From Alphaproteobacteria bacterium (GTDB lineage Bacteria; Pseudomonadota; Alphaproteobacteria; Rhizobiales; Xanthobacteraceae), in NCBI GenBank assembly GCA_026400395.1, contig JAPLPD010000149.1:1-64000 (forward strand): a stretch of 64,000 nt of DNA, given 5' to 3'. Shown here piece by piece: positions 27,922 to 43,420 of this stretch (the first letter of the stretch is position 1; every line of letters begins with the position of its first letter). Position numbers and translations under genes: made by a program. The notes beneath the pieces were generated by a model. The model searched no databases and was not told where the DNA came from. It saw nothing but the letters and a program-made list of their open reading frames with translations.

Positions 27922-29645
27922 TCAGCCGCCGTCGGGCTTTTTCTTGGCGGCGTCGGCCGACGAAGAGGTTTCCTCGGCCAACCCGGTCGCCAGCTTCTGC
28001 TTGATCTTGATGAGGTCGTCGGGCTCGGGCTTCAGATCGCGGGCATGCGACCACTGGAACTGCGCCTCGAGCACCCGACCGGTCTTGGCATAGGCGTCGC
28101 CCAGGTGATCGTTGATGGTCGGATCGTCGGGCTTCAATTCCACCGCCCGCTCCAGGTTCTTTACGGCCTCGTCGTAGTTGCCGAGGCGGTAGTGCGCCCA
28201 GCCGAGCGAGTCGACGATATAGCCATCGTCCGGGCGCTGCTCGACGGCGCGGCGGATCATCCGCATGCCCTCGTCGAGACCGGATAGAGAGTGAGCGCCT
28301 GCTTCAGATCGCTTTCGGCCGCCTTCCAGTTCTTCGCGCGCTCATTGCAGATGCCGCGGAAGTAATAGATCAGCCAGTTCGGCCGCGCCGGAGTGGCGAT
28401 GGTGGCGACGCCTTTGTTGTAAACATCTACGCATTCGGAGAAGTCCTTGCGCCCGCGCAGAATGCTGCCGAGCGCCATGATAGCATCGATGTCGTCGGGT
28501 TTGTCCTTGAGCAGCTTCTGCAGCCGCTGCTTGGCATCGTCGGTCTTTTCGATGCTGTCGAGATTGACCGAAAGCTGGATTTCAGCGTTGCGCCGCAGCG
28601 GCGAATTCTGCGGCACCCGATCGTAGATCTTGATCGCGAGCTGCGGGTTCTTCATCTGCTCGTAGAGATCGGCGAGCGACAGCAACGCGAGCGGCTGGTT
28701 CGGCGCAAGATACAGCGCGAGTTGCAGATAGACGAGCCCCAGGTCCTCGCCGCCTCGGCGGCCCAGCACCGCTCCAAGCCCGTACAGCACTTCGGCCGCG
28801 CCGGCCTGCGGATCGCCGACCAGCAGCGGAAGCTGTTTGTCCTTTTCAAGCGCCGCCATCTCTTCGAGAATCAGCGGATGGCGCGGCAATTGGGCGTCGA
28901 AGCCCTTGAGCACCTTCAGCGCCTCGTCCTTGCGGCCGTTGCGCGACAGCCAGGAGCTGTACGATTCGACGATGCGTATCGCGCTCGGATCGAGCTTCTG
29001 CACGCGGTCGAAACGCTTGCCGGCTTCTTTCTTGTTGCCCGACACGTCGAGGATCAGACCGGCGTGCAAATCCTTGAACAGCGCATACCAGTCGGCACCC
29101 TGCAGCTTGTCGATCGCCTCGATGGCGGACTTGGCGTCGTTGGCGCCGTAGCTGGCCCACGCACCGAGCAAGGTCGCGGCCAGATCGGTGATCGGCCCGC
29201 GGTTGGACAGCGCGAGGTTGACCTTCGCGAGCGCGTATTTCTTCTGCTTCAGCGCGTGGACGCCGACCACCAATCGGGCGATGCGGTCGTTCTTGTCGAG
29301 CTTGATCAGTTGCTCGCCGAGGCGCACCGCCTCCTCGACATCGCCCTCGGCCAGGAACGACAGGAAGGCGCGCTCCAGCAACTCGGGGTTCTTGGGGTCG
29401 CCGCGCAGCGAAGCGCGGTAGTAGGCCGCGGCGGCGCCGGCATCCCGCTGTGTGCCGGCGTGGCGGGCCGCGAGATAGCTGCCCGAAGCGGTCAGCCGAG
29501 ACAACTCGTGGGCCGATGGCACGTAGCTGACGACTGGCGCGCTATCCGGCGCGGCCCCCTGGGCGGCCAGCGAGCCTGGCAAAAGCAGCGTTGCTGCACC
29601 CAGCACGGCGCCCGTAATGCGCCGGAACGAAAAAGGAACAGTCAC
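27922..29645 (-). pseudogene. tetratricopeptide-repeat protein with internal deletion/frameshift
   Basis: 28257..29645 ends LKQALTLYPVSTRACG*; 27922..28266 resumes in another frame LDEGMRMIRRAVEQRPDDGYIVDSLGWAHYRLGNYDEA; the segment usually linking these is missing. Confidence 0.75.
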
Positions 29646-39529: not shown

Positions 39530-40243
39530 CTATGGTTCGGCCGTTTCCAGCGGCAGGCTGACCGGCGTCACTTCGACCAAGCTTGCACGATAGAACGCCG
39601 CAACCGGCGCGAACGAGCGGCGGTGGTGGACCGTCGGCCCGAGCCGGTTCAGCGCATGGACATGTTCCGGCACGCCGTAGCCCATATGCCGCTCGAAGCC
39701 GTAGCCGGGGTGTGCGGCGCCGAGTTGCAGCATCAGCCGGTCGCGGGTGACCTTGGCAACGATGGAGGCCGCCGCGATCGACGTGACCCGCGCATCGCCG
39801 GAGATCACCGCCTCGCAGTCGCAGCCGCAGTCGATGCGGTCGCGGCCATCGACGAAGACGAGCTTCGGCCGGACCGGCAGCGCCCGCACCGCGCGCGCCA
39901 GCGCCCACAGCGAGGCGCGCAGGATGTTGTCGCGGTCGATCCGGTCGGTGGAGCCGAATGCGACGGCGACCTCGGCGGTGGCGCATATCTTTTCGTACAG
40001 CCGCTCGCGCTCCTCATGCGACAGCTTCTTGGAATCGTTGAGCCCGCGCGGCACGCGATCGGGATCGAGAATCACCGCGGCGGCCACCACCGGGCCGGCC
40101 AGCGGCCCGCGCCCGGCTTCGTCGCAGCCGGCGACCGGCCAGATGCCGCGCGCCAGCGACCGCCGCTCGCGGCGGAACGTCGGGCGAAGGATTTCCTCCA
40201 CGATCGGCAGGCGCGGGGACTTGGCGGCGGCGGTGCGACTCAT
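39530..40243 (-). CDS. rnhB: ribonuclease HII
   Basis: [59 protein letters not shown]. Confidence 0.94.
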
Positions 40244-40328
40244 CGCCCGCGATCCTGCGCCTTGCTGCCCCCAATTCAAATAGTCCGAAGTTCCCCGCGA
40301 TGTCCCAATGAAAATGGCGGGCAAAACG

Positions 40329-40772
40329 TCAGTCGGGGAGGATCAGCCGCCCATCATCGGTGAATGCGAACCCTGGCGCCTGGACGATCTCCCAGGCATG
40401 GCCGTCGGGATCGGAAAAGTATCCGCGGTAGCCACCGTATTCAGTTTTCTCGGGCCGCCGCAGCAGACCGGCCCCAGCGGCAATCGCCTTGTCGAAGGCC
40501 GCATCGACCTCCGCCGGCGTCGCGCAATTCCAGGCCAGGGTCGCACCTCTGAAGGTCTGCGGGCGAGGCTGCGACGACAGCACCGCGTCCTCGGCGAGCT
40601 TGTCCCAACTCCACAGCGCCAGAGCCACACCGCCGGCGTCGAAGAACGCGATCTCGTCGCCGGTCGAGCGCACCTTTCGTGTAAGCCCCAGCGCTTCATA
40701 GAACCGCGCGCTCGCCGCCACATTGCGCACGCCGAGCGTCACCACAGTCAGTTTCAGCGCGGGTGTGTTCAT
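40329..40772 (-). CDS. VOC (glyoxalase/bleomycin-resistance) family protein
   Basis: [43 protein letters not shown]. Confidence 0.88.
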
Positions 40773-41974
40773 CCGAACAGGCTGAGCTGCTCGGCGCGCG
40801 GCTTGGGCGAGCGGAAGTGCTCGGTGGTCAGCGGCCTCTTGTGCTTGTTGAGGCCGAGCTTGTCGCAAGCCTTCTCGAAGCGGCGGCCGATCATCCAGGC
40901 GTAGGGACCGGCGCCGGTCATGCGGGTCCCCCAGGTGGCATCGTAGTCCTTGCCGCCGCGCATCTCGCGGACAAGCTTCATCACGTGTTCGGTTCGGTCG
41001 GGATAATTGGCCTTGAGCCACTCGATGAACAGGTCGCGCACCTCGAGCGGCAGGCGAAGCATCACGTAGCCGGCGCCATTCACGCCCGCCAGTGCGGCCG
41101 CATCGAGGATGCGTTCGATGTCGGCATCGTTGATGGCCGGAATGATCGGCGCCACCATCACCGAGGTCGGAATGCCGGCCGCCGACAACTGCCGCAGCGC
41201 CTCAAGGCGGCGGCCCGGGGTCGCCGCGCGCGGCTCCATGCTGCGCGCAAGCTTGGCGTCGAGCGTCGTCACCGACAGCGCGACCTTGACCAGATTGCGC
41301 TCGGCGAGCCGCGCCAGAATGTCCACATCGCGCAGAATCAGCGCCGACTTGGTGACGATGCCGACCGGATGGCCGGCACGCTCCAGCACTTCGAGAATGC
41401 CGCGCATCACCTGATACTTGCGCTCGATCGGCTGGTAGGGATCGGTGTTGGTGCCGATGGCGATGGTGCGCGGCTGATAGTTCGGAGCCGACAACTCTTT
41501 CTCCAGCAGCGCGGGCGCATCCGGCTTCACGAACAGCTTGGACTCGAAGTCGAGGCCGGGCGACAAGCCGAGATAGGCGTGGGTCGGCCGCGCGAAACAA
41601 TAGACGCAGCCGTGCTCGCAGCCGCGATAAGGATTGATCGAGCGGTCGAACGAGATGTCGGGCGACTCGTTTCGGGTGACGATCTTGCGGGTCGAATCGA
41701 CCGACACCGTCGTTGCGAATGGCGGCAGTTCTTCAAGGCTCTGCCAGCCGTCGTCGAAGGCGATGCGGGCGATCGACTCGTAACGGCCCGACACGTTGGA
41801 CAGCGTGCCGCGGCCGCGCCGCCGCTCGCCGGCGATGCCTACATCGGGAATGCCGCGATGGGCCAGGCTGGATGGCTTTAAGCTGTCCGACGATCTGCCA
41901 CCCGCCGGCGCGGAGGGCACCAACGCCGGCGGGTTGCGGAAAACTGGGGTTGAGTGGGTGTGGGACTGTGCCAT
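40769..41974 (-). CDS. PA0069-type radical SAM protein (SPL/DNA-repair-photolyase-like)
   Basis: SINPYRGCEHGCVYCFARPTHAYLGLSPGLDFESKLFVK (CxxxCxxC). Confidence 0.92.
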   Translation of the reverse strand: MAQSHTHSTPVFRNPPALVPSAPAGGRSSDSLKPSSLAHRGIPDVGIAGERRRGRGTLSNVSGRYESIARIAFDDGWQSLEELPPFATTVSVDSTRKIVTRNESPDISFDRSINPYRGCEHGCVYCFARPTHAYLGLSPGLDFESKLFVKPDAPALLEKELSAPNYQPRTIAIGTNTDPYQPIERKYQVMRGILEVLERAGHPVGIVTKSALILRDVDILARLAERNLVKVALSVTTLDAKLARSMEPRAATPGRRLEALRQLSAAGIPTSVMVAPIIPAINDADIERILDAAALAGVNGAGYVMLRLPLEVRDLFIEWLKANYPDRTEHVMKLVREMRGGKDYDATWGTRMTGAGPYAWMIGRRFEKACDKLGLNKHKRPLTTEHFRSPKPRAEQLSLFG

Positions 41975-41998
41975 GGCTGATATCTAATTCGCCCATTA

Positions 41999-42013
41999 GA
42001 ACAAAACAAGAAC
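41999..42013. promoter_or_regulatory. LexA/SOS box-like site (GAAC-N7-GAAC)
   Basis: GAAC-AAAACAA-GAAC, 25-39 bp upstream of the radical SAM gene start. Confidence 0.65.
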
Positions 42014-42484: not shown

Positions 42485-43420
42485 ATGGCGTCCATGACGG
42501 TTCCCGATGCGCAGCGCGTCGCCGCGGTGCGGCGCTTCAACCGCTTCTACACGCAGCATCTTGGCGTGCTCGGCGACGGATGGCTCGACAGCCCGTTCTC
42601 GCTGACCGAAGCACGCGTGCTCTACGAGATCAAAGTGCGCGACCGCGCCACCGCGACCGGCATCGCCCGCGACCTCGGACTGGACGCCGGCTATCTCAGC
42701 CGCATCCTGCGCCGTTTTCACAAAAGCAATCTTATCCGCAAGGATGTCTCCCCGGACGATGGCCGGCAAAGCTTCCTTTCGATCACCGCCGCCGGGCGCA
42801 AAGCCTTCGCTCCGCTCGAAGCACGGACGCAACGCCAGGTCGGCGCGATGCTTGGGCCGCTGACCGCACCGGAGCAGGATCGTCTGGTGTCGGCCATGCG
42901 CGCGATCGAAAGCATGATCACGCCGTCCCCCGCAATGACCGAGGAAATCGTTCTGCGTCAACCAGGTCCCGGCGATCTGGGCTGGGTGGTTGCCCGCCAT
43001 GCCGAACTCTACGCGCAGGAGTACGGCTGGGCAGAAAACTTCGAAGGCATCTGCGCACAGATCGTCGCCGACTTCGTCAGCAAGCTCGATCCAGATCGCG
43101 AACGCTGTTGGATCGCCGAAATGGACGGCCGCAACGTCGGCTGCGCGTTTCTCGTGAAGGATTCCGCCACGGTCGCGCGGCTCCGTCTGCTGCTGGTCGA
43201 TCCGGCGGCGCGCGGCCGGGGCCTCGGCCATAAGCTCACCGACGAATGCATCCGCTTCGCCCGGCGATCCGGCTACAAGGGCATCACGCTGTGGACCCAC
43301 AGCGTGCTCACCGCCGCGCGACACATCTACCGGAAGGCGGGCTTCCGCCTCACCTCCAGCGAGAAGCGCAAAAATTTCGGCAAGGACGTGGTCAGCGAAC
43401 ACTGGGATTTGGAATTCTAG
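42485..43420 (+). CDS. MarR-type HTH fused to GNAT N-acetyltransferase
   Basis: N-terminal FSLTEARVLYEIKVRDRATATGIARDLGLDAGYLSRILRRF; C-terminal VDPAARGRGLGHKLTDECIRFARRSGYKGITLWTHSV. Confidence 0.9.
   Translation: MASMTVPDAQRVAAVRRFNRFYTQHLGVLGDGWLDSPFSLTEARVLYEIKVRDRATATGIARDLGLDAGYLSRILRRFHKSNLIRKDVSPDDGRQSFLSITAAGRKAFAPLEARTQRQVGAMLGPLTAPEQDRLVSAMRAIESMITPSPAMTEEIVLRQPGPGDLGWVVARHAELYAQEYGWAENFEGICAQIVADFVSKLDPDRERCWIAEMDGRNVGCAFLVKDSATVARLRLLLVDPAARGRGLGHKLTDECIRFARRSGYKGITLWTHSVLTAARHIYRKAGFRLTSSEKRKNFGKDVVSEHWDLEF

Follow-up and report, generated by a model that had tools for sequence, protein, structure and literature searches.

A conserved LexA-type operator upstream of a PA0069-type radical SAM gene with a putative sliding-clamp tag in Alphaproteobacteria

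Introduction

A 2012 study (PMC3323433) predicted that splB (COG1533) is under SOS control in alpha- and betaproteobacteria and regards its product as a photolyase with homology to spore photoproduct lyase (SPL). PMC8565304 also includes the gene among the SOS genes, and SplB-like proteins were noted in PMC3765255. The alphaproteobacterial splB of PMC3323433 and PMC8565304 is regarded here as a putative equivalent of the PA0069 family of radical SAM proteins. A further group of described systems comprises the clients of the beta sliding clamp (DnaN), for which the binding consensus has been given as QL[S/D]LF (PMC3716654) and as Q-L-x-L-F at the C-terminus (PMC4549789); Pol II (QLGLF), UmuC (QLNLF) and transposases carry such a tag (PMC3716654, PMC4549789).

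The job of the radical SAM gene has so far rested on the label 'photolyase', and the family analysed here fails the SPL test and ends in a clamp-type tag. If the reading developed below is true, an entire class of radical SAM enzymes induced by damage would work at the replisome. We analysed a stretch of 64,000 nucleotides from a member of the Xanthobacteraceae (assembly GCA_026400395.1, contig JAPLPD010000149.1, positions 1 to 64,000), referred to as the window, together with its own genome and homologous loci.

Results

The gene under study (40769-41974, minus strand) encodes a radical SAM protein of 401 aa, which matches the NCBIfam model NF033668 (rSAM_PA0069) over the full profile (positions 1-348 of 348) with 562.3 bits against a cut-off of 360 and is also recognised by Pfam Radical_SAM. 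Its CxxxCxxC iron-sulfur motif reads CEHGCVYC (residues 119-126; 41597-41620, minus strand), and in an alignment of 30 diverse homologues the cluster cysteines of this motif were the sole invariant cysteines; the radical SAM motif is established at the level of sequence.

At 41999-42013 the forward strand reads GAACAAAACAAGAAC, and the gene's strand reads GTTCTTGTTTTGTTC, a GTTC-N7-GTTC direct repeat. The sequence-only reading had claimed a LexA box fitting GAAC-N7-GAAC at this place, and the box is indeed present; its position upstream of the radical SAM start was also correct, with a measured gap to the ATG (41974) of 24 nt instead of the claimed 25 bp. By itself, the bare GAAC-N7-GAAC pattern is no better than chance in the window, since two sites were observed and 1.84 were expected from shuffled sequence (57 of 100 shuffles reach two), and the pattern alone therefore proves nothing. 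The window's other match, GAACGAAAAAGGAAC at 29625-29639, lies close to where a long ORF on the minus strand begins and is likely due to chance. Across the genome, 150 such sites were counted against 95 for the reversed control, and the bulk of them must be chance matches.

These counts would suit a reading in which the box is nothing but a chance match to a short pattern, but the comparison of the loci of 80 close orthologues leaves this reading a vanishingly small probability. GTTC-N7-GTTC stands just before the radical SAM start, at fixed spacing, in 78 of the 80 loci, against a flanking background of two sites in 428 kb, and because of this conservation the box is above chance. The two loci lacking an exact box are one whose record starts 25 bp before the match (L103) and one with one-mismatch boxes (L111). 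When the loci are aligned on the box, the information content is about 2 bits per column inside it, except for a few middle positions, and mostly 0.1-0.4 bits in the upstream flank, so that the box forms a 15-bp island amid unconserved DNA. Conservation of the box had been proposed as a check on the initial claim, and both the operator sequence and its conservation are established in sequence terms. The box was also considered as a control element of a divergent DUF3551 gene; this was rejected, DUF3551 being present in just 4 of the 80 loci and the spacing to the radical SAM gene being constant.

The operator appears to be embedded in a promoter. A predicted -35 element, TTGTTT (42004-42009, minus strand), lies inside the box and is followed by a predicted -10 element, TAGATA (41981-41986, minus strand), giving the layout TTGTTT-N17-TAGATA-N6-ATG. 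The orthologues are alike, with TTGATT in most relatives (TTGATT or TTGTTT in 63 of 77 orthologue boxes) and a spacer of 16-17 nt. The best-fit -10 element stands 6 nt before the start in 64 orthologue promoters, a distance that is suggestive only as promoter evidence, the hexamer having been selected by script from three spacings for its best fit. The layout implies that the gene is repressed through occlusion of the -35 element, and the radical SAM mRNA would probably be leaderless or nearly so.

To follow the operator beyond close relatives, 199 Pseudomonadota genomes were searched with the NF033668 profile, 84 of which gave a match above the cut-off, and loci were read on the gene's strand. 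GTTC-N7-GTTC was found in 48 of 52 alphaproteobacterial genomes and CTGT-N8-ACAG in none of the 52, whereas among the other Pseudomonadota (all those outside the window's class, unsplit) CTGT-N8-ACAG was found in 22 of 31 and the GTTC-N7-GTTC direct repeat in none. All four alphaproteobacterial misses, as well as L111, have a one-mismatch box upstream. A recognised LexA box was absent upstream in 9 of the 31 non-alphaproteobacterial genomes, which may use other LexA motifs or lack LexA control. The direct repeat precedes the homologues of Sinorhizobium, Azospirillum, Paracoccus, Sphingomonas and Methylobacterium; the box upstream of the Aeromonas homologue reads CTGTATATATAAACAG and that of the Streptomyces homologue GAACATGTGTTC. 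No recognised LexA box was found upstream of the homologue on a Legionella adelaidensis plasmid (L218, 2480-3568), a copy that adjoins a divergent polX. Under true LexA control, the target gene should stay constant as the LexA motif changes, which is the pattern seen here, and the switch between alphaproteobacteria and other proteobacteria extends the remarks made on alpha- and betaproteobacteria in PMC3323433.

In the window's own genome, core SOS genes have the box in common with the radical SAM gene. Both imuA and ssb are preceded by the identical 15-mer, and related boxes lie upstream of lexA (L006), recA (L035), radA, an rmuC-like gene, a RecD2-like helicase gene and a TIGR03916 radical SAM gene; LexA and RecA are thus both encoded, each behind the same box type. 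The probable SOS regulon comprises lexA, recA, imuA, ssb, radA, the rmuC-like gene and the RecD2-like helicase gene (L006, L035, L037, L041, L043, L044, L045). The TIGR03916 gene, of a type linked to uracil-DNA glycosylase, lies at 504-1475 on the minus strand of its contig (L046, G000:C350), with a GAAC-N7-GAAC box at 1501-1515, 25 nt upstream; its ORF of 323 aa matches just profile positions 2-295 of 415 and may be frameshifted or truncated. More GAACAW-type sites (L033, L034, L038, L039, L047), some of which may be chance, were seen near genes for a topoisomerase III-like protein, a 68-aa unknown protein, an RNase T2, a SocA-like protein and a YifB-family protein. Taken with the 78 of 80 orthologues and the operator switch, the 15-mer shared with imuA and ssb gives strong support, as far as sequence can, to the claim that a LexA box controls the PA0069-type radical SAM gene, and from these data we infer LexA binding and induction.

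The radical SAM protein ends in QLSLF (residues 396-400; 40775-40789, minus strand), a putative DnaN-binding motif by the published consensus (PMC3716654, PMC4549789). The strict motif occurs within the last seven residues in 79 of the 80 close orthologues, the sole miss (L126) being cut by a contig end. A relaxed motif was found, mostly at the last residue, in 163 of 174 homologues, a set that includes many close relatives and the window's own copy; several of the others end in QxxLF-type variants. As a control, 411 further ORFs with a length of 150 aa or more were taken from the window and the same loci, and none carries the strict motif; the control is rough, as this mechanical set surely includes some non-genes. 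The tag is preceded by a linker variable in length and composition, and in most homologues it forms the extreme C-terminus. The match to the clamp consensus, which is short, can be read directly from the protein, and clamp binding would be its expected consequence. The genome holds one copy of dnaN.

Downstream and in the same direction lie a gene for a VOC/glyoxalase family protein (Pfam Glyoxalase; 40329-40772, minus strand), which overlaps the radical SAM gene by ATGA, and rnhB for ribonuclease HII (39530-40324, minus strand), both as had been described from the sequence alone. A divergent gene for a MarR-GNAT fusion protein (42485-43420) is found on the other side, and 39 of the 80 loci show such a neighbour of the radical SAM gene.

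Discussion

The account that best explains the whole of these observations, and in which we place moderate confidence, is that the box is a genuine LexA operator, that the gene is SOS-induced and that its product is a clamp-docked DNA repair enzyme. In undamaged cells, LexA bound on the -35 element of a sigma70 promoter would keep the PA0069-type radical SAM gene off. DNA damage would lead to RecA-stimulated cleavage of LexA and free the promoter, and the radical SAM gene, perhaps with the VOC gene and rnhB behind it, would be transcribed, the mRNA beginning at the ATG or beside it. The enzyme would combine a [4Fe-4S]/SAM radical core with a flexible C-terminal tail, the QLSLF of which docks on the DnaN sliding clamp. 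Docking may place the radical chemistry where replication forks and gaps present lesions, modified bases or blocked ends, and the enzyme would work there alongside other SOS clamp clients.

Whether the box serves the radical SAM gene or a larger unit bears on the extent of the response. The sequence-only reading had suggested a damage-inducible unit, and an operon of the radical SAM gene, the optional VOC gene and rnhB, in which RNase HII removes ribonucleotides left by SOS polymerases, would be compatible with the favoured account and would add rnhB to the response. The order and direction of these genes are conserved, with rnhB in 76 of the 80 loci, and an overlap joins the VOC gene to the radical SAM gene; the VOC gene, however, is found in just 43 of the 80 loci, and the box is kept in Sinorhizobium meliloti (L212), Paracoccus (L215) and Sphingomonas (L216), where a gene other than rnhB is annotated next, albeit in incomplete gene tables. 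Since the box persists in these loci, its constant target is the radical SAM gene, and we regard control of the whole unit as a tentative possibility, on the unlikely side. A different question is posed by the substrate. The range of substrates of radical SAM enzymes is very wide, and an SOS-regulated enzyme whose target is RNA, protein or a metabolite, with QLSLF as part of the fold and no clamp hook, would suit a VOC neighbour that could be metabolic and a clamp tag that is a sequence prediction. The variable linker and the position of the tag at the extreme end are instead as expected of a docking peptide, and the core SOS control argues for a role on DNA; we therefore give a non-DNA substrate little credence and infer DNA as the substrate.

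The published reading of 'splB photoreactivation', in which an enzyme under LexA control undoes a UV photoproduct by direct reversal, like SPL, likewise seems improbable to us. It draws on the COG1533/splB naming of the SOS literature (PMC3323433, PMC8565304) and on a structural comparison by Foldseek, in which SPL structures gave the top TM-scores (0.46-0.48) and other radical SAM enzymes mostly 0.3-0.4. That comparison is rough and indicates fold resemblance only; the two AlphaFold models available have mean pLDDT values of 55 and 58, and the tail and the N-terminal third are of low confidence in the latter. In SPL, a conserved cysteine serves as the hydrogen-atom donor (compare the C140 mutants in PDB titles). 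No such conserved fourth cysteine was found in the 30 aligned homologues, in which just the three cluster cysteines are invariant; the SPL model TIGR04070 scores 15.4 bits on the window protein against a cut-off of 400; and a PDB sequence search with the window protein returned nothing useful, with matches to SPL at E = 0.5-0.8. Membership in the SPL family is rejected on these three results, and the earlier description of the gene as 'SPL-like' holds loosely at the level of the fold, in a low-confidence model, but fails by sequence.

If the clamp reading of the favoured account is true, the question of what the PA0069-type enzyme repairs becomes directly testable. More broadly, sliding-clamp tethering of a radical SAM enzyme for DNA repair could have its first example in the PA0069-type proteins, which would then form an SOS-induced group of clamp clients that carries SAM radical chemistry to the replication fork and reaches across Pseudomonadota into Actinomycetota, a proposition that we consider evenly balanced. 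The predicted LexA control is already known, and published accounts of the clamp tag and of the promoter anatomy were not found: in a search that covered only a minority of subscription journals, no paper named PA0069 together with LexA, and none linked radical SAM enzymes to a clamp motif or QLxLF or presented one as a clamp client. Nor was a published description found of a promoter-embedded operator for a PA0069-type gene.

Among known families, the window protein shows no sequence difference from the PA0069 family of NF033668, a model that NCBIfam holds as a hypothetical equivalog with no function assigned. The next-best model is that of the Rv2578c family of Actinomycetota (NF038135), with 238 bits, below its cut-off of 430; a Streptomyces relative is preceded by a GAAC-N4-GTTC box and has QLTLL as its end, and a Tsukamurella relative ends in QESLF. 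With spore photoproduct lyase (TIGR04070; PDB 4FHC-4FHG), which gave the best TM-scores in the PDB search, the window family has the radical SAM fold in common but differs in the absent fourth cysteine and in a TIGR04070 score far below the cut-off. The end of the protein is an exact match to the QL[S/D]LF consensus of the beta-clamp clients, and clamp binding is predicted from it. The closest regulatory counterpart is the SOS-regulated splB (COG1533) of alpha- and betaproteobacteria and Bacteroidetes (PMC3323433, PMC8565304), likewise a radical SAM gene annotated for DNA repair and preceded by predicted LexA boxes, with the alphaproteobacterial motif GTTC-N7-GTTC. In contrast to the published description of splB, the gene in the window belongs to the PA0069 family and not to SPL, and combines a C-terminal clamp-type tag with an operator that is predicted to lie within its promoter.
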